A stretch of 37,285 nucleotides of DNA from a virus. Below are positions 1 to 37,285 of the stretch, in pieces (positions within the stretch are counted from its first letter, which is position 1; every line of letters begins with the position of its first letter). The notes under the pieces are model-generated. The model saw nothing but the letters and a program-made list of their open reading frames with translations. It ran no database searches and was not told the DNA's origin. Location: positions 1 to 37,285 of the IMG/VR virus record IMGVR_UViG_3300028025_001281, one strand, 5' to 3'. The translations under genes were made by a program, and so were the position numbers.

Positions 1-438
1 TCCATTCTGACGTACTCATGTTCTTAATCGAACGAGGATCAGTTGTATCGTATGCTGGCGAGCCAGAACCTCTAGCTGTGACAGGTGCAATCGGTGCAGG
101 AGCGTTTGAAGTCTTTTTTACAGGCGGGTTGTCGCTTAACTTCGCTTCAATCCTCCCTATTTCTTTGGCCTGCATGAAAGGTGATAAGCGAGATATACGT
201 TCAGCTTCTTTTGGATTAGACCCTAGGTAATAAGCCATGTCGGGGCCAACATCAGAAGATTGAATCGTTTGAGCCATCACGTCAGTAATTGGTAGCTTGG
301 GGTTATATGCGACTTGTTCAAAGTCATCATACTTTGTCCGCGCTTCTTCTTCTCTGTCGTGGTAAGACTCTAAAAGATCAGACTGCGCTCTAGCTTGTTC
401 ACGTCTAGTAATTAATTCTTCTGCCTTACGTTCTGCTA
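1..438. repeat. Left copy of the diverged terminal overlap
   Basis: Bases 1-438 align without gaps to 36848-37285, with 11 substitutions (at 128, 153, 212, 239, 254, 335, 341, 377, 410, 412 and 415). The overlap lies wholly inside the scaffold-like gene, and joining the ends restores one open frame. This is best read as an assembly overlap of a circular or circularly permuted genome, not a biological terminal repeat, which would normally be identical. Confidence 0.85.
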
Positions 439-9246: not shown

Positions 9247-9441
9247 GGTGAAATCTTATCATAGATTTTTTATAAAAAAATAAAAAGTTTGGGCAAACGC
9301 TCCGCCACAGTAGGGCCGTTCGGCTCGGACCTGCCCCCCCCATGCTAAAAGTTTTTGCCCTCTGCTAGTAAGTGCTTGCTAACAACTGTAAGCCGTGGGC
9401 TACTTGGACAATGCGGACAAGTAAGTTTTAACCGCCAGTTA
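9247..9441. other. Short intergenic region with GC-rich C8 tract; candidate packaging or control site
   Basis: Next to the small terminase the sequence is an AT-rich stretch (9258-9288). It then turns abruptly GC-rich (9299-9343) with an eight-C run ending just before 9342. A small inverted repeat, GTTTG/CAAAC, lies at 9287-9298. Two GGACAA motifs lie at 9404-9421. The region could hold the pac or cos site, but no cut site can be proved from sequence alone. Confidence 0.35.
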
Positions 9442-9612
9442 TTAGTAGTCTACTTGAATGTATTTGGCACGGTTCACACTGTTGAACATATCGCTAAACG
9501 ATGCCTTACCTTTTTTGTAATTTGGGTTGGGGATTTTACATTCCTCATTGTTTATTTTATCTTGCAGTTTTTGCGCTACTCTCATTTGTCTTAGCAATTC
9601 CTTTTTTGTCAT
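9442..9612 (-). CDS. Small basic protein in the control region, 56 residues
   Basis: The frame begins MTKKELLRQMRVAQKLQDKI and ends AKYIQVDY. AAAAGG about 8 bases before the ATG is a reasonable ribosome binding site, and an extended -10 promoter lies 36 bases further upstream. The protein is charged and helical at its N-terminus, with no membrane segment. Its isolated place between the early and late promoters would suit a small regulator, which is inference only. No family is recognised. Confidence 0.6.
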   Translation of the reverse strand: MTKKELLRQMRVAQKLQDKINNEECKIPNPNYKKGKASFSDMFNSVNRAKYIQVDY

Positions 9613-9647
9613 GGCGTGCCTTTTAATGTGGGTTAGTTGGACAATCT

Positions 9648-9656
9648 ATTATAGCA
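9648..9656 (-). promoter_or_regulatory. Extended -10 promoter (TGCTATAAT), leftward
   Basis: On the minus strand TGC is followed by a perfect TATAAT (9653-9648). A TGn extension can replace a good -35 box, and none is seen here. Transcription would begin near 9641, inside the TTGGACAAT motif at 9637-9645, which could therefore act as an operator. The downstream gene is the 56-residue frame at 9442-9612. Confidence 0.55.
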
Positions 9657-9912
9657 TTATCCAAGTGCTTAATAATTACAATTTATATTTGTGGGCAGTG
9701 CGGACTTGTCCACTACAGCCCGTACAATAGTAAGACTAAACGCGAACGATTCTCATTATCATATACATACTTAACTTTTTAAAGGTAAAGGAAATAGACT
9801 TATCCATAATATCCATAACTCAATTTTATAAGCCTCTCATTCGTTTATGCATTGTCCGCAACACTATCCATTTGGACAATTCGCAACACTAAAATATATT
9901 TGCAAATAGTGC

Positions 9913-9941
9913 TTGACAAGTGTAACAAAATTTGAGATACT
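9913..9941 (+). promoter_or_regulatory. Strong sigma-70 promoter for the early plus-strand genes
   Basis: A perfect -35 TTGACA (9913-9918) is followed by a 17-base spacer and GATACT (9936-9941). The predicted start near 9948 leaves a leader of about 37 bases before the first early ATG at 9985. The inverted ATTGTCC/GGACAAT pair (9851-9880) lies 33 bases upstream of the -35 box. Confidence 0.7.
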
Positions 9942-9984
9942 GTAATTGTAGTAATTAATCAACTAATCTAAGCAAAGGGAAAAC

Positions 9985-10194
9985 ATGAGATTAACAATAT
10001 CAAGCAAGTGGTTAAATACGGAGGCAAATCGTATTGAGAGCAATGCTAAGGATAGTCTTAGCACATGGATTGTTTTAGGAATGACTGATAAATACAACAT
10101 GAAATTAGATATTGCTTCGATGTATCGTAAGGCATCACAAATTAAAAGCATTGCATTGCGTAGAGAATATTTATCAAACAACGGCTTAATCTAA
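9985..10194 (+). CDS. First early protein, 69 residues, unknown function
   Basis: This is the first gene behind the strong early promoter, with AAAGGG about 8 bases before the ATG. It is basic and helical (KASQIKSIALRREYLSNNGL near the end) with no recognised domain. Phage genes in this place often redirect host functions, but nothing in the sequence identifies a target. Confidence 0.7.
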   Translation: MRLTISSKWLNTEANRIESNAKDSLSTWIVLGMTDKYNMKLDIASMYRKASQIKSIALRREYLSNNGLI

Positions 10195-10206
10195 GGACAA
10201 TACAAC

Positions 10207-10398
10207 ATGAAAACTATCTCAATGATTGGTAATTCACTATTAAACTATCAAGCAAAATTTGAATCAGTTATGAAAGATTCAACAAAAGAAGAAGCAACGA
10301 TGTTGCTAGATTCCATAGAATCGCAAATGTGTGAAATCCCCTATGGTGAAGAAATTTACAATATTGCTTACAAAACTTTCAAGAGTATTTTTAACTAA
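10207..10398 (+). CDS. Early acidic protein, 63 residues, unknown function
   Basis: AAGGA lies about 10 bases before the ATG. The protein is predicted helical with an acidic middle (STKEEATMLLDSIESQMCEI) and shows no family signature. It follows the first early gene by 12 bases. A tetraloop hairpin lies just after its stop. Confidence 0.7.
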   Translation: MKTISMIGNSLLNYQAKFESVMKDSTKEEATMLLDSIESQMCEIPYGEEIYNIAYKTFKSIFN

Positions 10399-10406
10399 CT
10401 AACACA

Positions 10407-10424
10407 GAGAGGGGCGACCCTCTC
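10407..10424 (+). terminator. Stable GCGA-tetraloop hairpin without a T run
   Basis: GAGAGGG (10407-10413) pairs with CCCTCTC (10418-10424) around a GCGA loop, a GNRA-type tetraloop. No T tract follows, so it is more likely an mRNA-stabilising or processing element, or a weak terminator, than a classical intrinsic terminator. Confidence 0.5.
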
Positions 10425-10455
10425 ACTAATTGACTAAACTAAGGAAAACACTAAA

Positions 10456-11064
10456 ATGCAATTCTCTATTAAACAATCTCAATTAAAAGCCCTCTTATTA
10501 CTCGCGCCTAAGAGTGATATTAGATATTATTTATGTGGCGTATTTGTGGAATACAACCAAACTACTACCCGCTTGGTAGTAACGGACGGGCATAAACTTG
10601 GTGTATTTAATCACCGTAGCGAAGATAACCAAGGTAGCGGGTCGCTAATCATCCCGCGCGATGTAATCGAAAACTTGCCAAAGGCGGGTAAAACGGACGC
10701 TATTTTAATATTCACTAAAGAGGAAAAGGCGGGTTATTGGAAGTTAGATAATTATGGCACGCAAACAATTTTTAGCCAAATTGACGGAAAATTTCCCGAT
10801 TACAGGCGGGTTTGCCAATTCACAACGGACGGCACGGTAGCCAATTTTAATTATGAGTATTTGGTGCAATTCTTAAAAGTGCAACACGCCTTGGGCGGAA
10901 GTAAGGGTTCAACCCTCAATTTATACCAAAACGGCAATTCTAGCGCCCTTGTGCATTTGGCGGGGGTTGATAATTTTGCGGGCGTAGTTATGCCGATGCG
11001 AGCCGATAGCACCAACCAAGCGGGCGCAACCGTAAGCATGGATTTTACAAGCGTATTGGCTTAA
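10456..11064 (+). CDS. Short DnaN-like (beta) sliding clamp homologue
   Basis: The 202-residue protein matches the bacterial polymerase III beta clamp from its second domain onward: RYYLCGVFVE (23-32), VVTDGHKLGVF (41-51), SLIIPRDVIENL (63-74) and IDGKFPDYRRV (109-119). It then resembles the end of the third domain (FNYEYLVQFL, 131-140, and VVMPMR, 177-182), where E. coli DnaN ends VVMPMRL. E. coli DnaN has 366 residues, so domain I and about half of domain III are missing. Twenty further residues follow the usual end. A clamp would tether the phage polymerase, or the protein could bind clamp partners. Expression is early, from the promoter at 9913, and AAGGA lies about 11 bases before the ATG. 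Confidence 0.8.
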   Translation: MQFSIKQSQLKALLLLAPKSDIRYYLCGVFVEYNQTTTRLVVTDGHKLGVFNHRSEDNQGSGSLIIPRDVIENLPKAGKTDAILIFTKEEKAGYWKLDNYGTQTIFSQIDGKFPDYRRVCQFTTDGTVANFNYEYLVQFLKVQHALGGSKGSTLNLYQNGNSSALVHLAGVDNFAGVVMPMRADSTNQAGATVSMDFTSVLA

Positions 11065-11068
11065 TACT

Positions 11069-11123
11069 GTAATCCGTCAAACCCTTAAATTTTAGGGGTT
11101 TGCTGGATTACTATTAAGTAATC
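11069..11123 (+). promoter_or_regulatory. Attenuator-like RNA element with two exclusive hairpins
   Basis: GTAATCC (11069-11075) pairs with GGATTAC (11105-11111) around an inner 11-pair stem (11078-11088 with 11092-11102). The same right arm (GATTACT, 11106-11112) can instead pair with AGTAATC (11117-11123) around an ATTA loop. The element lies between the clamp-like gene stop (11064) and the next ATG (11157). Neither form has a T tract, so any switch would more probably act on translation or RNA stability. Confidence 0.5.
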
Positions 11124-11156
11124 AATAAACTTAACTCAACTACAGGAATCTAAACA

Positions 11157-11591
11157 ATGCTAACGATGACAAAACGAGAATATAACACCAAGCCAAAGGA
11201 TTACCGCGGAATGATTGACGGTAAACCGTATCTATTGACAATGGATAAAACAACAGGCGGGACAATACTAGCGCCAGTAACCATTAAAAACAATCCAACA
11301 ATGGCGACGGTTAAGAGTTTTATTAAAAAGAATCAAGGCAAACTCTACATTAAAAATTTGTCTAATTTTGACGGCATGGTTGATTGTGTTATGCCGTGCG
11401 ATGATAAGGGTTTTAGACTAGCGCAAGCGCCCGAGGTAGGACGCAACCACGAGAATTGCCTAGGTATTCGTGGCGCTTGGTTCGTGCTACACGGTGGCGA
11501 CCGTGTTTATGAGTTTTCGGACGGACAATTCGAGGGTTACGAGATTTACAACTGTTGCGGTAATTTTTTCCTAGCCGTGGAGGTTAAATAA
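11157..11591 (+). CDS. Early protein, 144 residues, unknown function
   Basis: The protein is mixed alpha/beta with an N-terminal RGMIDGKPYLLTMDKTTGGT (residues 18-37) and a Cys-containing C-terminal half (NCLGIRGAWFVLHGGDRVYE). AGGAA lies about 10 bases before this ATG; an alternative ATG at 11166 has no such site. The family is not recognised. The stop overlaps the next start as TAATG, and the gene lies behind the two-state hairpin element. Confidence 0.7.
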   Translation: MLTMTKREYNTKPKDYRGMIDGKPYLLTMDKTTGGTILAPVTIKNNPTMATVKSFIKKNQGKLYIKNLSNFDGMVDCVMPCDDKGFRLAQAPEVGRNHENCLGIRGAWFVLHGGDRVYEFSDGQFEGYEIYNCCGNFFLAVEVK

Positions 11592-11758
11592 TGATATTAA
11601 CTATTGATTTTGACGCAATCATAGCGCACGCCCTTGAGACTGGCGCCAGTAAGTATGACTATTCTTTTCAGTTTTGGGACGCATTTAACGAGTTATATCC
11701 CGATGTAACAGATAAATATGCAAGAGCGTTAAGGCCTACGGACGAGGTTACACAATGA
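11591..11758 (+). CDS. Small early protein, 55 residues
   Basis: The start overlaps the upstream stop by one base, and the stop overlaps the next ATG by 4 bases, so the frame is packed inside an operon. The protein is acidic and aromatic (SKYDYSFQFWDAFNELYPDV). No domain is recognised. Confidence 0.6.
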   Translation: MILTIDFDAIIAHALETGASKYDYSFQFWDAFNELYPDVTDKYARALRPTDEVTQ

Positions 11759-11853
11759 AGCCATACATTGATTACATACTAGGCGCAATCTTTAGCGTTT
11801 TAATGGGGCTAACCTTGGCGGGAATATGGATATACGCTAAGGGTTGGTATTAA
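11755..11853 (+). CDS. Single-span membrane peptide, 32 residues
   Basis: The sequence begins MKPYIDYILGAIFSVLMGLT and continues into LAGIWIYAKGWY. It is one predicted inner-membrane helix with hardly any soluble part. Its ATGA overlap with the previous gene supports expression. The role is unknown; superinfection exclusion or membrane modification are possible early functions for such peptides. Confidence 0.5.
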   Translation: MKPYIDYILGAIFSVLMGLTLAGIWIYAKGWY

Positions 11854-11864
11854 TAGAGTTATCT

Positions 11865-11907
11865 TATAGCGTCTCTGTTGAGGGACGCTATAGGGCTAAT
11901 TTTAGCC
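11865..11907 (+). terminator. Tandem intercistronic hairpins
   Basis: TATAGCGTC (11865-11873) pairs with GACGCTATA (11884-11892), and the inner bases extend the stem around a GTTG loop. A second small hairpin, GGCTAA/TTAGCC (11894-11907), follows at once. There is no clean T run, so partial termination or RNA stabilisation is more likely than full termination. They separate the 32-residue gene from the gene at 11943. Confidence 0.5.
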
Positions 11908-11942
11908 AATACACTAATCTAAACTAATCGAAGGGTTACATC

Positions 11943-12185
11943 ATGGAAAAATTATTAAGAGTTGATTTTGAATCTAATAGAGTTGAGCGCACTAGGGAAG
12001 AATGGATAAAAGAGTTAATAGAATACCAAATTGATTGCCTAGACTGTGTAGACAACAACGATGCCACGCTTACTTATCTTCTACGCTATGGCTTTGTAGG
12101 CTACGACAATATGACGGACGGACGGCTAAGCGTTGAAATATATGACACGCTAGGGCATAACTACCACATTGAGGAGACTATTTAA
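11943..12185 (+). CDS. Early acidic protein, 80 residues, unknown function
   Basis: GAAGGG lies about 8 bases before the ATG. The acidic protein has a helical start (TREEWIKELIEYQIDCLDCV, residues 17-36) and a likely beta end. A repeated CTAATCTAA leader precedes it, as in other early genes here. No family is recognised. Confidence 0.7.
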   Translation: MEKLLRVDFESNRVERTREEWIKELIEYQIDCLDCVDNNDATLTYLLRYGFVGYDNMTDGRLSVEIYDTLGHNYHIEETI

Positions 12186-12187
12186 TC

Positions 12188-12361
12188 ATGGAATATATTG
12201 TTAAAAAGACTATTGAGGTTATTTATACCATTGAAGCCGACACGGAAAGCGACGCTATTAATTTAGCCAACACAATGGAACTGGACGAAGCCGACCAAAT
12301 GACAGTCTACGAGATTGAAGCCGAATCAATCGAAGAATATGAGGAGAGCGTGAAATGCTAA
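12188..12361 (+). CDS. Small acidic beta-alpha protein, 57 residues
   Basis: The frame starts MEYIVKKTIEVIYTIEADTE, a beta-strand-like opening followed by an Ala/Asp/Glu helix, and ends YEESVKC. It overlaps the next gene by 7 bases. GGAGAGCGT (12343-12351) near its end is the ribosome binding site of the next gene and recurs twice downstream. The function is unknown. The start has no clear Shine-Dalgarno, so coupling to the gene ending at 12185 is likely. Confidence 0.6.
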   Translation: MEYIVKKTIEVIYTIEADTESDAINLANTMELDEADQMTVYEIEAESIEEYEESVKC

Positions 12362-12531
12362 TCGAAATTACTAAAGAGCAATTAAGTGATTTAAATATGT
12401 TGTCCGTGCTTTGTGGCTACTATTTACAAAATATGGAACCGTCAAACGATTGTTACGAATCCGATAACGAAATGGTAGAGGACGGACAAGCGGTTCTAAC
12501 TTATCTCTATACACAATTTAAGGGGGTTTAA
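12355..12531 (+). CDS. Small acidic protein, 58 residues
   Basis: The start ATG lies within ATGCTAA, overlapping the upstream stop, and GGAGAG lies within 12 bases. The protein is acidic with a helical core (MLIEITKEQLSDLNMLSVLC). No domain is recognised. Its neighbours on both sides are small acidic frames of the same style. Confidence 0.6.
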   Translation: MLIEITKEQLSDLNMLSVLCGYYLQNMEPSNDCYESDNEMVEDGQAVLTYLYTQFKGV

Positions 12532-12533
12532 AA

Positions 12534-12761
12534 ATGCAAAATGTTAAATTAGAAAATTGGGTTTATGCGTCTATAGCGAGATTAACAGATAATTTTGATT
12601 GGGTTGGACAAGATATAGACATTGAGGATAGATGCCAATTAGAGCAGTTATTAATTGACGCTATCAGCGCAAATAAAGAACTAGCGGATAAATTCGTGGA
12701 CTTATGCTTAGACCACGGTATTGTTGAGCATGATTATTTTGACGAAATGGAGAGCGTATGA
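12534..12761 (+). CDS. Small acidic protein, 75 residues
   Basis: Probably all-helical and strongly acidic (FDWVGQDIDIEDRCQLEQLL, residues 22-41). AAGGGGG lies about 7 bases before the ATG. Its last codons spell MESV, and GGAGAGCGT (12749-12757) abuts the next ATG. Small acidic early proteins may act as DNA mimics or inhibitors, but nothing specific supports that here. Confidence 0.7.
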   Translation: MQNVKLENWVYASIARLTDNFDWVGQDIDIEDRCQLEQLLIDAISANKELADKFVDLCLDHGIVEHDYFDEMESV

Positions 12762-12922
12762 GAAAAATTAAATCCTACACGCTGAGCATCGTTTGGGACG
12801 ATGGTAAAGAAGAATCCGTTTATCCGTCAAGCAAGGTAAAAGAGGAGTTATTTGATTATTTTGACGAACTTGAGGAAGAAGAAGAATATTGCAATCCAAC
12901 AACAGAGGAGAAAGAAGCATGA
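12758..12922 (+). CDS. Small acidic protein, 54 residues
   Basis: The frame opens MRKIKSYTLSIVWDDGKEES and then has a run of Asp and Glu (residues 37-43). Its ATG overlaps the upstream stop by 4 bases, with GGAGAG as ribosome binding site. It ends in a purine-rich stretch that provides the binding site for the next gene. The function is unknown. Confidence 0.6.
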   Translation: MRKIKSYTLSIVWDDGKEESVYPSSKVKEELFDYFDELEEEEEYCNPTTEEKEA

Positions 12923-13152
12923 TTAATATTAAACGATTACAACGCTTTAAAGAGTTGTTATGGCAACGATATGACGACAGAATCAGAGACGAAGAAGATT
13001 GGTTTTATAAGGGTTGGGGGTGGGAGATTAATTTTGTAGAAAACAACGACCAAAGTAGTTGCGTCGCTTATCGAATTAAAGACGGTTATACGGATTGGAG
13101 TGATTATATTATTCTTGAAAAATATGTCAAAGAATGGAGAAAAATAGCATGA
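12919..13152 (+). CDS. Small early protein, 77 residues, Trp-rich
   Basis: The ATG at 12919 is chosen over one at 12889 because it overlaps the upstream stop as ATGA and has GAGGAG about 10 bases before it. The protein carries many Trp and Tyr residues (EEDWFYKGWGWEINFVENND) and is charged. No family is recognised. Confidence 0.65.
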   Translation: MINIKRLQRFKELLWQRYDDRIRDEEDWFYKGWGWEINFVENNDQSSCVAYRIKDGYTDWSDYIILEKYVKEWRKIA

Positions 13153-13316
13153 TTACAAGAGACGAATTAGAAGTTATATGGGACGCTTTATTCGATATGC
13201 GAGAGAATTGCATACCCGAAGGCGACCCACAATATGATGCAAAATGGAGCGATATTTGCACAACCATGCACAAAATCGAAGAAGAACTGGAGATATGGGA
13301 GAGCGTATGTATATAG
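13149..13316 (+). CDS. Small acidic helical protein, 55 residues
   Basis: The ATG at 13149 overlaps the previous stop by 4 bases, with GGAG upstream; an ATG at 13134 is less well placed. The protein is helical and acidic (MITRDELEVIWDALFDMREN) and ends WESVCI, so GGAGAGCGT (13298-13306) again abuts the next ATG. The function is unknown. Confidence 0.6.
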   Translation: MITRDELEVIWDALFDMRENCIPEGDPQYDAKWSDICTTMHKIEEELEIWESVCI

Positions 13317-13491: not shown

Positions 13492-13519
13492 AAAGCCCCT
13501 TAATTGGGGCTTTATTTTT
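13492..13519. terminator. Bidirectional intrinsic terminator between converging modules
   Basis: AAAGCCCC (13492-13499) and GGGGCTTT (13506-13513) form a stem around TTAATT. ATTTTT follows on the plus strand, and an A-rich stretch gives a short T run on the minus strand. It separates the plus-strand early genes from the minus-strand primase-helicase, which ends at 13518. Confidence 0.85.
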
Positions 13520-15827
13520 ACTTAATATTGACGCTTTGGGGTGTTGGAACATCCTCAAGCGCGCGCCTTAACTCAGACTTACTCAGAATTGACGCTATTT
13601 CGGGGTCTGCAAAAATGTGCTTCTTCGTGTCAAACTCTCTCGACTTCAACCGTCCACAGTCTACCCAGCCAGCCTCTTTAAGAGCGTGTAAGAGGGCGGC
13701 TTGTGGCACTTTAACATTAGAGGGTGCTAACCCTGTTAGACGGTCACAGAGAGCGTGGAAGGGCGAACCGATAACGCCTTTGGCAAACTCACCCTTGCGA
13801 CCCTTGAGCATCTCGACCAAGAACGATTCTGCCATACTCATGCCGTGTTCAACTAGGTTCGCTTTGAACTCGGTCATCATCGGTGACGCTGACGGATTAA
13901 ACTTACTCACATCACGAGCGTGTAGCCACGCTGAAATCGACTCGAACCCACCATGTCGATACCAATCCCACATATCCTTGGCTTTGTTCGAATCCATCCG
14001 CCCTGTCGCTGACCAGACGCAAAACCATCGCCTATCTTGTGACGCTAAAGAGATTGGAACAGGGTCATTCGAGAACGCTAAAACGAATAGTCTATTAGCC
14101 ATTTGGTATGGGTGCAACCCCTTACGGTTAATCGGTAGCATCTCAGGGGGAGCCGCTATTATCGGCTTAAGTTGGTTCGCCAACTGCCTACGGGCGGACG
14201 CATCGGGTTCTTTCAATTCGTTGATTAAAAGTATTTCAGACTCTAATTGATAACCCCATTGACTATTAATCGAGTTGTTATCCATAATGCCACGATTCTT
14301 TAGATGCGAACCGCATACCGACCAAATGAATGGCGCCCACATCGTATCTTTACCGCAACCCTCATCGCCACCATGCAGAACGGCATGATTGATTTTTAAT
14401 TCGGGGTGTTGCAACTTAAAAGCCATGATGTTAAGTAAATGTTCTAATTCCTCTGGCTCAGGCACTAACTCACGGCAATGGTCTAGCCAAGACGCTATTT
14501 TCGATTCGGATGCAACCACGGCTGACACATCAGGGCGAGCGTCACGCCATCGGTTGCCATACAAATCACCGTCACGAGCGACTAACACCGTCTCGCCTGC
14601 GGCATAAGTTATGCCCACGAGCGCCTTGGCGCCCATCGCTTGCCTGTTCTGGTCAAAGCAGATAGATGCCTCAATCTTGGTGTTTGTGTGTAGTGATAGA
14701 CACTTAATGTGACGGAACAAAGCGTTAAAAGTCTGTCTCGACACCTCACGGCGGTCTTGCATATCAAAGAAAGACTCATCGTCCTGCACATACGCAAAAC
14801 GCTCATACCACTTGGACTTCTCGACCCTGCCAAGCTCCTTACGCTCGACCTCGGCTATCTTGGCATCAGCGTCATCGGTAAACATATCGGACGGCGTGAT
14901 CTTGGCAAGCGCAACAGTCATCGCCTCAGCGATCAATTTGTCACGCAAGCCATGTGTAACTTTAGGGCCACCGTTAGCGGCAACCCAATCGAGGAATGTT
15001 TGGCTGCCGAAATCGACACAATGCGAGTGCAGGCAACAATAAGAACGATCTAGGGGTTTGTACCGACCTTCGGGGTTGCCATCGGTGTGTTCGGCGTTGT
15101 TAGGGCAAGTGACTGATAACCACCCTTCGCCGTTGATCTTGGACAATACCATGCCTTGATCATTCATCCATGCTAACACATCATCGCCACCATTGTCGGC
15201 GAGTCTAATCGGTGCGTAATGATTCGTGTCAGCAGGCGCAGGTGTTACACCCAACGCCGTGCAGATGTCACCTAGCGTGTAGTCACGCTCAGGGTGAAAC
15301 TCGACTAGCTTGGCTTCGAAGTTATCACGCCCAGGCTTCAAGTTAATCGAACCTGGCAGACGCACATTACGGACTGCGTTAGTTGCTCCTGCATCGGTGT
15401 AACCTGCCGCCGCAATCGCTTTGACCGCTGCCGTGAACTCACCCTTGGTGGGTTGCTCCGAGAAAGCGTAGCCATACTGAAAATTATCAGGGCTAGTCTC
15501 AAGAATCCATGTCGGTGCAAGGGGCGGTGTTTTTGATTTCGTACCGATATCATCTAACATCATAAAGAGAACGAACTCGCAGTTGGCTGCGGACGCTGAT
15601 ACGCGTCCATCCTCAAAGCGGTCTATGATAAATGATGCCGTATTGATATACCACGCCTCACCAGCTCGCATCTTCTGACTAGGCAAATATGCAGGCCATG
15701 TACATTTGATAGCGCCGTCAGCGTGCAGTTGCAGCTCACCGTCTTTCAACTGTGGCTTTTGGCGCACAATCAAGGCAGTCTCGCCCTCTGGCGCTAAATT
15801 CGTGATAAACTCTAAAAAGTTGTACAT
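13518..15827 (-). CDS. Primase-helicase (RepB-like primase plus SF3/DUF5906-like helicase)
   Basis: This 769-residue protein has a primase-like N-terminal domain: LDDIGTKS (91-98) is a DxD-type metal site, and VRNVRLPGSINLKPG (152-166) matches the RLPG(S/T) signature of RepB-type primases. A Cys/His group (C241, H247, C264, C265, H267, C270) may bind zinc. The helicase domain has Walker A GGDEGCGKD (486-494) and Walker B EILLINELKE (531-540). It would open the origin and prime synthesis for the phage polymerase. GAAGGAAA lies about 8 bases before the ATG. The nearest model I know is the DUF5906 helicase of NrS-1-type replication proteins. Confidence 0.8.
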   Translation of the reverse strand: MYNFLEFITNLAPEGETALIVRQKPQLKDGELQLHADGAIKCTWPAYLPSQKMRAGEAWYINTASFIIDRFEDGRVSASAANCEFVLFMMLDDIGTKSKTPPLAPTWILETSPDNFQYGYAFSEQPTKGEFTAAVKAIAAAGYTDAGATNAVRNVRLPGSINLKPGRDNFEAKLVEFHPERDYTLGDICTALGVTPAPADTNHYAPIRLADNGGDDVLAWMNDQGMVLSKINGEGWLSVTCPNNAEHTDGNPEGRYKPLDRSYCCLHSHCVDFGSQTFLDWVAANGGPKVTHGLRDKLIAEAMTVALAKITPSDMFTDDADAKIAEVERKELGRVEKSKWYERFAYVQDDESFFDMQDRREVSRQTFNALFRHIKCLSLHTNTKIEASICFDQNRQAMGAKALVGITYAAGETVLVARDGDLYGNRWRDARPDVSAVVASESKIASWLDHCRELVPEPEELEHLLNIMAFKLQHPELKINHAVLHGGDEGCGKDTMWAPFIWSVCGSHLKNRGIMDNNSINSQWGYQLESEILLINELKEPDASARRQLANQLKPIIAAPPEMLPINRKGLHPYQMANRLFVLAFSNDPVPISLASQDRRWFCVWSATGRMDSNKAKDMWDWYRHGGFESISAWLHARDVSKFNPSASPMMTEFKANLVEHGMSMAESFLVEMLKGRKGEFAKGVIGSPFHALCDRLTGLAPSNVKVPQAALLHALKEAGWVDCGRLKSREFDTKKHIFADPEIASILSKSELRRALEDVPTPQSVNIK

Positions 15828-15851: not shown

Positions 15852-15881
15852 ACCCCTAGCCCAAAACTAGGGGTTTTTTTT
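15852..15881 (+). terminator. Intrinsic terminator pointing against the operon
   Basis: ACCCCTAG (15852-15859) pairs with CTAGGGGT (15867-15874), followed on the plus strand by a run of T (15874-15881). Both flanking genes run on the minus strand, where the hairpin is followed only by TAATTAATTC. It therefore looks best suited to stopping antisense, rightward transcription. Confidence 0.65.
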
Positions 15882-17850
15882 ACTTTCCATACCTTGTCAT
15901 AATGCTTGCCTCTACGTCTAGTGGTAATCCCTCAGCCCATACGGGTGGGGTACACATAACGTCTTTGATTATTTGTACTGCTATTTCGGGTGTTGCTGAC
16001 TCGACCACAATTTCATCATGGACGTGAAGTACCACATCATCCAAGCCTCGCAAAGCGTGTCGCAGTAAGTCATTGGCGACTGCTTGTGTAATGTTTTCAC
16101 AGGCCAAACCTTTCCAGAGTCTTGCTCTAGGCCACTCTTTAGCGTCTGCTGCTGGCTTCCACGATGCTTTGGCATAACTCACTCCATCTGTATCTAATCG
16201 GGCGAATGGATAGCATAACACACGCCCACTAGGAAGTGCATACCACAAGTGTTGCCCATCAAATAAATAGGTTACTCGCCCTGCTCTAAACTCATGACCT
16301 TTGTTACGCATCGCACGTGTATAGGCATTTTCAAGGTCTTGCCAGTACGGCACCGACCACGGGTTAGCTAGACGCCACGCATTAACCATCCGCTTGGCTT
16401 CAGGTTCGGGTAACAAAATGCCGTACGCCCTACCCATCGCAGCGAACGCTCCCACGCCACCTGCGAATCCACACGCTAACTCTTGCACCTTGCCGATCTG
16501 CCTCTGTTCGCTAGTAATCTGATCAACTGGCACATGAAACGTCGCACTAGCGTTAACCTTGTAAACATCCTCACCAGTACGGAACAGATCTAGCTTACGA
16601 ATACCTGCTGGACAGTTAGATAGCCACGGATTAACCCGTGCTTCAACGGCTGCCCAATCTGCAACGACTAATGATTTTCCCCGATCGGATACGAGGGCAG
16701 GTCTAAGCATTGACTTGAGTACATCGGTAATACGTCGTCCAAAGGCAGGGACAATTGCGTGGCCTCTAACCATAGCGGATCTAACGGCATCAGGCTCCTT
16801 GGCACACTTTCGGGTAAAGTTGTGTACTTGCGCTCCGTAACTACTTGCCCTACCTGTGGCTGCGCCACCAGCAAAGACAAATGCTCCACGAACTCGGTTA
16901 TCTTCTTCATCTGCTAACTCCTTTAGTCTTTTAAATTTTGCGACACTAGACGCCCATAGGTCGTCCGCACATTGGATAACATCTGCAACTTGCGGCGGAA
17001 CTTGGTCGGGATTTTCTTCAGCACACACAAGTAGATTAACTCGAACTGTCTTGTCGATTGAGTATTTTTTGTCACCATCTTTGTAGTTTTCCATCAATTT
17101 CTTGGCCTGATCGCCAACTCTAGCGAGAACCCACTCACGCATCCGTGGACTTCTCACACTTAATATTTCACCATCTGTCAATTCTGCTACTAAATTTTCT
17201 ATTTCTATTAACTCTGCACTAGCATACTTGATTGCTGACTCGGCTAAAGGTTTGTCTAATAGCACGCCACGGTCATTAATCTTTTCATTTACATGATAGT
17301 CTAACAGCTCATCATCTGAAAGCTGGCGCATAGCTTGGCTAATCGCACGCATTGCTCGAACATCCTGCTCGCAGTAGGCAACCATCTCAGCCATCAGCGT
17401 TACATCATTATTAAATGTACCGTCGGCCTTGGGGATAGATAGCAAGCGAATCAGTTGATTGCCACGGTGATCCTTACGCATATTCACGCTTGCGAATCTG
17501 CCCACGTCATCAAGCGAGCCTGGCGCACAGTTGGCACGAGCCTGCGTAGCTGTACAATAGAACTGTTCCGTAGTCGGTTCTGGGATTCCTTTGTCTGGGC
17601 AGAGGACGTACCACATAATCAAGCGCTCGAACGCAGCGTTATGCGCCCGTATTTGACCGCCATCTTTGATGTGCTGAATCACTCTGTCAGGGAACGGTTG
17701 ATCAGGTAGCCACGACTGCACTTCCTCATCGTCAAACGCATAGGACAAGCAAAGCACAGACGTGCTGGCATCCCTTGCGTAGTTATAGACGCCACGGCTG
17801 GGTAGATCACAGCGTGAGCGTGTCTCGAAATCAATATATAGGATTGTCAT
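15880..17850 (-). CDS. Family A DNA polymerase with 3'-5' exonuclease
   Basis: This 656-residue polymerase replicates the phage genome. The exonuclease domain shows YIDFETRS (5-12, Asp7 and Glu9), HNAAFERL (70-77) and YCEQDVRAM (159-167, Tyr159 and Asp163). The polymerase domain shows motif A VVADWAAVEAR (395-405, Asp398), motif B SEQRQIGKVQELACGFAGG (447-465, Arg450 and Lys454) and motif C LHVHDEIVVE (608-617). The proofreading and polymerising residues I can identify are present. No good Shine-Dalgarno precedes the ATG; instead a long inverted repeat ends 7 bases before it. Confidence 0.92.
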   Translation of the reverse strand: MTILYIDFETRSRCDLPSRGVYNYARDASTSVLCLSYAFDDEEVQSWLPDQPFPDRVIQHIKDGGQIRAHNAAFERLIMWYVLCPDKGIPEPTTEQFYCTATQARANCAPGSLDDVGRFASVNMRKDHRGNQLIRLLSIPKADGTFNNDVTLMAEMVAYCEQDVRAMRAISQAMRQLSDDELLDYHVNEKINDRGVLLDKPLAESAIKYASAELIEIENLVAELTDGEILSVRSPRMREWVLARVGDQAKKLMENYKDGDKKYSIDKTVRVNLLVCAEENPDQVPPQVADVIQCADDLWASSVAKFKRLKELADEEDNRVRGAFVFAGGAATGRASSYGAQVHNFTRKCAKEPDAVRSAMVRGHAIVPAFGRRITDVLKSMLRPALVSDRGKSLVVADWAAVEARVNPWLSNCPAGIRKLDLFRTGEDVYKVNASATFHVPVDQITSEQRQIGKVQELACGFAGGVGAFAAMGRAYGILLPEPEAKRMVNAWRLANPWSVPYWQDLENAYTRAMRNKGHEFRAGRVTYLFDGQHLWYALPSGRVLCYPFARLDTDGVSYAKASWKPAADAKEWPRARLWKGLACENITQAVANDLLRHALRGLDDVVLHVHDEIVVESATPEIAVQIIKDVMCTPPVWAEGLPLDVEASIMTRYGK

Positions 17851-36791: not shown

Positions 36792-37285
36792 TTAGCGGTT
36801 TCTCAATGCTTCGTACTTTTTGATCTGTCGGTTTCGTTCAGCTTCAATCCATTCTGACGTACTCATGTTCTTAATCGAACGAGGATCAGTTGTATCGTAT
36901 GCTGGCGAGCCAGAACCTCTAGCTGTGACAGGTGCAATCGGTGCAGGAGCGTTTGAAGTCTTTTTTACAGGCGGATTGTCGCTTAACTTCGCTTCAATCT
37001 TCCCTATTTCTTTGGCCTGCATGAAAGGTGATAAGCGAGATATACGTTCAGCTTCTTTCGGATTAGACCCTAGGTAATAAGCCATATCGGGGCCAACATC
37101 GGAAGATTGAATCGTTTGAGCCATCACGTCAGTAATTGGTAGCTTGGGGTTATATGCGACTTGTTCAAAGTCATCATACTTCGTCCGAGCTTCTTCTTCT
37201 CTGTCGTGGTAAGACTCTAAAAGTTCAGACTGCGCTCTAGCTTGTTCACGTCTAGTGAGTAGTTCTTCTGCCTTACGTTCTGCTA
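36792..37285 (-). CDS. Scaffold-like protein, C-terminal part (variant copy)
   Basis: This is the 3' part of the gene that begins at 730, joined through the overlap. It stops at 36792 and is open to the right edge, where its frame corresponds to residue 98 onward. The C-terminus is basic (RNRQIKKYEALRNR), as in P22-type scaffolds, where a basic helical end binds the coat. This copy differs from the left one by three conservative changes (Asp/Glu, Ile/Leu, Arg/Lys). Confidence 0.75.
   Translation of the reverse strand, partial: AERKAEELLTRREQARAQSELLESYHDREEEARTKYDDFEQVAYNPKLPITDVMAQTIQSSDVGPDMAYYLGSNPKEAERISRLSPFMQAKEIGKIEAKLSDNPPVKKTSNAPAPIAPVTARGSGSPAYDTTDPRSIKNMSTSEWIEAERNRQIKKYEALRNR
36848..37285. 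repeat. Right copy of the diverged terminal overlap
   Basis: This segment matches 1-438 with no gaps and 11 substitutions. It marks where the sequence closes on itself, so about 36,847 bases are unique. Confidence 0.85.

Follow-up and report, generated by a model that had tools for sequence, protein, structure and literature searches.

A short DnaN relative encoded by an exchangeable phage gene keeps the pocket for clamp-binding motifs and lacks the dimer-interface regions

A clamp-like gene among small plus-strand ORFs

The window, by which we mean the whole stretch of 37,285 nucleotides that was analysed (IMG/VR record IMGVR_UViG_3300028025_001281), contains a hypervariable accessory cluster in which one ORF encodes a short relative of the beta sliding clamp DnaN, here called mini-beta (Table 1). 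An in-frame stop at 10435 lies upstream of its ATG, so that no domain I precedes it, and no pieces of domain I or of the N-terminal half of domain III were found elsewhere when the whole window was checked. A strong hairpin lies on either side of the gene, which may form a transcription unit of its own; its earlier assignment to an "early operon" is plausible given the plus-strand cluster of small ORFs, in which no strongly conserved neighbour of mini-beta was found. The two ends of the window (1-438 and 36848-37285) form a 438-base direct repeat of 97.5% identity, which is an imperfect terminal overlap reflecting population variation or assembly.

Table 1. Features of the mini-beta gene, its product and its surroundings (res, residues of the 202-residue protein; beta, E. 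coli beta)
Feature	Position	Strand	Remarks
Accessory cluster, hypervariable, small plus-strand ORFs	9342..13306	+	between terminase small subunit and primase-helicase
G+C-rich hairpin, 5' of mini-beta	10407..10424		-14.0 kcal/mol
Ribosome-binding site AAGGA	10441..10445	+	sequence, 5' of mini-beta ATG
mini-beta CDS (putative pocket-only beta-clamp relative)	10456..11064	+	202 aa, ATG start
Domain II equivalent, res 1-120	10456..10815	+	beta ~126-255; two beta-alpha-beta3 half-domains
RYYL, res 23-26	10522..10533	+	beta R152-L155; loop II and pocket subsite I
TDGHKL, res 43-48	10582..10599	+	beta T172-L177; pocket subsite I
FPDYRRV, res 113-119	10792..10812	+	beta F241-V247; pocket subsite I
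C-terminal half of domain III, res 121-182	10816..11001	+	beta ~314-366
NYEY, res 132-135	10849..10860	+	beta N320...Y323; pocket subsite II
VVMPMR, res 177-182	10984..11001	+	beta V360-R365; C-terminal lip of pocket
C-terminal tail past clamp end, 20 residues	11002..11061	+	family-variable, lower model confidence
Long hairpin right after mini-beta	11069..11111		possible terminator or processing site; -25.9 kcal/mol for 11062-11160
Primase-helicase (context)	13518..15827	-	without clamp-binding motif
Family A DNA polymerase, PF00476 (context)	15880..17850	-	without clamp-binding motif

The first-pass annotation had described a reduced DnaN-type protein without domain I and about half of domain III, and this description proved exact when the protein was aligned to beta: mini-beta consists of domain II and the C-terminal half of domain III, with domain I and beta ~256-313 missing. 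All the motifs it had named are present (RYYL 23-26, TDGHKLGVF 43-51, IDGKFPDYRRV 109-119 and VVMPMR 177-182). The relationship is far beyond chance, as is evident from a Pfam search, in which the window protein matched the beta central domain PF02767 only (E=1.8e-10, residues 17-115), from a search against solved structures, and from the structural superposition given below. In the search against solved structures P. aeruginosa beta was matched at E=6e-14 in two stretches, residues 2-128 corresponding to beta 127-257 and residues 130-182 to beta 319-366. The three-domain set of DnaN (PF00712-PF02767-PF02768) is incomplete in mini-beta, which scores 49.9 bits against the TIGR00663 cut-off of 137.65, and the protein also differs from the gp45/PCNA type, which has two complete clamp domains per subunit, in having one complete domain and one half-domain. 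Its beta-alpha-beta3 half-domains together with the DnaN sequence similarity place it in the clamp superfamily.

Predicted fold, lost ring features and kept pocket

A monomer model of the window protein, computed with AlphaFold from an input that included 53 family members, has three beta-alpha-beta3 units (pLDDT 91.6, pTM 0.85). Foldseek with this model retrieved E. coli beta at 5e-11, and VIA-align superposed 172-176 of its residues on solved clamps over beta ~126-366 at about 2.2 A (Z 17-18), so that the proposed check by structure prediction against DnaN yielded a beta-clamp fold matched over ~175 residues, not one short motif. Since one rigid superposition spans the deletion, domain II and the last half-domain keep their relative positions in the model, and the pocket lies between the two. 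Compared with DnaN (E. coli 2POL/1MMI; PF00712, PF02767, PF02768), the window protein thus shares the domain II fold, the C-terminal half of domain III, the pocket for clamp-binding motifs (CBMs) and the superposition, but has neither domain I, the N-terminal half of domain III nor the dimer residues; its pore helices are shortened or lost, K198 is lost, and it is encoded by an accessory phage gene.

Both halves of the dimer interface are missing in 63/63 aligned members of the family. The hydrophobic interface residues of beta, namely I78, F106, I272 and L273 (PMC11139829), all fall in the missing regions, the last two in the N-terminal half of domain III. The first pore helix of the window protein is four residues shorter (beta 140-143 missing) and the second has five residues in the model, while a Skate-type member, modelled at pLDDT 88.1, has no second pore helix at all. 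At the position of K198, a pore DNA contact of beta (PMC5042465), a basic residue is found in 73/73 DnaNs (a set drawn nearly entirely from beta- and gammaproteobacteria) versus 1/63 members, and 47 of the 63 have an acidic one; the R197 position is basic in 29/63 members versus all 73 DnaNs, and E202 and K235 are also lost. Conversely, positions 148/149, next to the pocket, carry basic residues in 55/63 members versus 2/73 DnaNs, and these gained lysines could also point to DNA binding. Judging from alignment and model, mini-beta is predicted to be unable to dimerise via the known interface and to have lost the pore features for holding DNA, and it is probably monomeric. Closure as a trimer, which had been put forward earlier, is therefore not supported: the protein has three half-domains rather than two full domains, and the missing interface regions, the reduced pore helices and the mostly acidic K198 position all speak against it.

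The pocket is the part that has been kept. Using the pocket residues listed in PMC11139829, we found 16/18 to be identical to E. coli beta in the window protein, versus 35/156 elsewhere. Across the 63 members the pocket columns have a mean entropy of 1.17 bits versus 2.60 for other columns (p=4e-7); positions 148-158 were left out of this test because the pattern used in the IMG/VR scan, D[IV]R[YF]YL[NC]G, forces residues 150-157, where conservation is thus partly a product of the search. Among positions that are near-invariant in DnaN, the members retained 0.76 in the pocket versus 0.46 in the others (p=0.01), and pocket residues are largely kept also in 20 members found without the search motif. 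Some drift is seen at R176, L177, V344 and M364. In BcepC6B gp31 (L113:2992-3591) and a relative (L115:2992-3597) the VMPMR lip is lost, the corresponding residues being AGCRL and VMGWQ, and these two proteins provide a natural test of the importance of the pocket. Pocket conservation suggests that mini-beta may bind CBM peptides or proteins, and it is consistent with the notion, already raised in the first-pass annotation, of a decoy for clamp-binding proteins.

A widespread and exchangeable family

The same annotation considered a clamp of this kind unusual here, but the gene is not rare: by tblastn, 248 GenBank phage records match mini-beta, 196 of them over >=80% of the query, although a few of the 248 represent full-length DnaN or host contamination. 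The matches include the podovirus BcepC6B, the myovirus Bcep781, Skatevirus and Dhillonvirus EP23, as well as Vibrio, Acinetobacter and Pseudomonas phages and a lambdoid Hafnia phage. Matches in Rhizobium 16-3, RHph_X2_25 and Aurantimonas AmM-1 are full-length DnaNs and were not counted as members. Two records were set aside: MG065691.1 (L035, an UNVERIFIED record named "Campylobacter phage A11a"), in which the matching gene translates to E. coli DnaN and is probably host contamination, and CAKLQH020000026.1 (L037, "Acinetobacter phage MD-2021a"), which contains a chromosomal rpmH-dnaA-dnaN-recF-gyrB stretch. Similar matches covering about 82% of the query also occur on the Cupriavidus/Acinetobacter plasmids NZ_CP073678.1, NC_015724.1 and NZ_CP032280.1, perhaps within prophages. 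The IMG/VR scan gave about 100 mini-beta loci, and the ORFs of those inspected, at about 150-232 residues, are too short to include domain I as well. A deletion at beta 140-142, found in 63/63 members versus 0/73 DnaNs, points to a single origin of the family.

Many of these genes carry another name. The profile PHROG_3007, "RusA-like Holliday junction resolvase", matches mini-beta along its full length (E=3.3e-32 over 1-185 of 190 positions) and also matches all 53 members tested; the same 53 are matched by the processivity-factor profile PHROG_947. In Pfam, 51 of the 53 match PF02767 and none matches RusA (PF05866) at E <= 0.01. The RusA label on PHROG_3007, phrog_12598 and many RefSeq records (for example NC_005887, NC_054639, NC_004333 and NC_016566) therefore looks like a propagated misannotation. 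Skate gp41, Bcep781 gp15, EP23 gp08 and BcepC6B gp31, which belong to PHROG_3007 and share the family and architecture of the window protein, are of the type recorded as a resolvase or as a plain beta subunit; the annotators of Bcep781 had described gp15 as a "DNA Pol III b subunit fragment". In a partial literature search we found no published mechanism for this family, and nothing of use on a phage short clamp, a decoy clamp or beta*.

With dN/dS values of 0.06-0.19, mini-beta is under strong purifying selection, and it is an exchangeable accessory gene. Among 19 near-complete relatives, picked by polymerase alone (71-97% identical), it is present in only three and absent from 16. For two of those without it, G021 and G025, DNA identity to the window is about 92-93% next to the terminase genes and 82-91% next to the replication genes, and the cluster in between has been replaced. 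The carrier G002 matches the window at about 93% in the terminase/portal block and at 84-92% in the replication block, and mini-beta, at 71% nucleotide identity, is essentially the sole part of the cluster that still aligns; its protein is 73% identical to that of the window, versus 97-99% for polymerase, helicase and terminase. In Bcep781 and EP23 the gene lies on the plus strand amid minus-strand structural genes, like a moron.

In two phages whose terminase side is about 92% identical to that of the window, the cluster that holds mini-beta in the window contains a gene for a 232-aa DUF7227 protein (L304:8487-9185 and L305:13392-14090). DUF7227 occurs in 6/16 relatives without mini-beta versus 0/21 carriers (Fisher p=0.003, uncorrected for descent). 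In G025, a small ORF close to the accessory cluster contains a low-complexity stretch in which ARAGARAG is repeated (L305:14710-14886).

The presence of a family A polymerase in the phage, as implied in the first-pass annotation, is confirmed by the PF00476 match. The search for a clamp-binding motif that it had proposed gave a negative answer: none is found in the window polymerase or primase-helicase and none is conserved in relatives. More broadly, compared with 11 related records, no canonical CBM was found in the window polymerase, primase-helicase, helicase, exonuclease or SSB-like protein, and the sole conserved candidate, QLSLPL, is encoded by an ORF that runs within the polymerase gene in a different frame. 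Of 31 carrier records, some of which may be fragments, 20 have a family A polymerase match and 11 have no PolA match; Pol III alpha was matched in 0/31, and PolB in none of the 11 without PolA. Mini-beta is most likely not the processivity ring of the phage polymerase.

Possible roles of the pocket

We lean, with some reservation, towards a reading in which mini-beta is a ring-less, pocket-only derivative of the beta clamp that catches host CBM proteins, as a decoy or as an adaptor, its gene being an accessory one for interaction with the host. The computed part comprises the homology and the fold, the absence of the interface, the retention of the pocket, the changes in the pore, the accessory distribution and the purifying selection; the monomeric state, CBM binding and its physiological outcome (inhibition, hijack or anti-defence) are inferred. 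The protein would preserve in rigid form the groove that receives Pol III alpha, clamp-loader delta, Hda, Pol II/IV/V, MutS/MutL and ligase, and, as a soluble competitor, it would occupy the CBM of one or more of these host proteins, which would then be kept off the host clamp or brought to the phage's own work. Binding of delta is ~50 times tighter for the beta monomer than for the dimer (PMC11139829), so that an unattached pocket could be an effective competitor. In several carriers (yong1, Skate type) no polymerase gene was detected; these phages presumably replicate with host Pol III and would be harmed by a potent general decoy, which would call for a selective target or a limited dose.

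Several other explanations may be considered. A true miniature clamp, in which several copies form a ring (e.g. four subunits of three half-domains, giving the 12 units of beta2 and PCNA3) and tether the polymerase, would use the same beta-alpha-beta3 building blocks, would have parallels in T4 gp45 and PCNA, which close rings with fewer domains per subunit, and would suit the 20 carriers with a family A polymerase; it is nevertheless highly unlikely, as both known interface regions are missing, two of the three pore helices are shortened or lost, K198 is mostly replaced by acidic residues, the polymerase has no CBM and near-identical phages live without mini-beta. Unlikely, too, is a monomeric adaptor or processivity aid for the phage replisome, its pocket docking a phage (or host) protein and its basic loop II binding DNA, like UL42. 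Ring-less viral clamps do exist (PMC9690074), the loop with the gained basic residues touches DNA in beta (PMC5042465), and the gene adjoins the polymerase gene in BcepC6B and lies between cII and replication genes in yong1. However, the replication proteins have no canonical CBM, 16 of the 19 phages with closely related polymerases do without the gene, 11 of the 31 carrier records have no PolA match, and the net charge of mini-beta is near zero. A monomeric adaptor for some phage protein with an unusual motif is conceivable.

That mini-beta acts as an anti-defence or antitoxin sponge, the pocket capturing a host factor that attacks via the clamp (a SocB-like CBM toxin, or a defence or mobile-element protein), we regard as quite unlikely. 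SocB blocks replication via the clamp pocket (PMC9690074), the cluster is hypervariable with swapping of cassettes, and DUF7227 is found only in relatives without mini-beta, a pattern that may, however, reflect shared descent. A decaying, functionless dnaN remnant would account for the missing half of the protein, but this is very improbable in view of the low dN/dS, the intact ORF and ribosome site and the same architecture in 63 aligned members. As for a RusA-like Holliday junction resolvase, the database label by itself speaks for it, and its probability is next to nil given the profile matches and the beta-clamp fold.

Other short or viral clamps offer partial parallels to a pocket-only mimic. 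E. coli beta* is a UV-inducible short beta made from an internal start in dnaN; like mini-beta it has no domain I, but it retains the whole of domain III with its pore residues. T4 gp45 and PCNA share the clamp fold with mini-beta but have two full domains and close as trimers. Herpesvirus UL42, which also has the clamp fold, demonstrates that a ring-less clamp can work, although unlike mini-beta it is basic, binds DNA and is tied to a polymerase. The phage Twort protein Gp168 inhibits the clamp by binding the clamp channel itself (PMC11139829); both proteins would be phage strategies directed at the host clamp network, with mini-beta imitating the clamp and binding its clients.

A broader proposal, on which we are nearly evenly divided and end slightly on the doubtful side, is that phages repeatedly carry a monomeric, ring-stripped docking site as an exchangeable weapon or shield that titrates CBM proteins, which could include the clamp loader, Hda, repair polymerases, mismatch repair or clamp-dependent defence; with the same hesitation, it may be seen as the converse of the phage strategy of blocking the clamp directly. 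The existence of near-identical phages with and without mini-beta makes its role directly testable. If the pocket-only reading is right, a big phage family filed as a DNA-cutting enzyme or as a plain clamp would in fact mimic the bacterial replication hub, its label in annotation pipelines would need correction, and it would represent a new route by which the clamp network is attacked or redirected as well as a natural soluble reagent for clamp-binding motifs.
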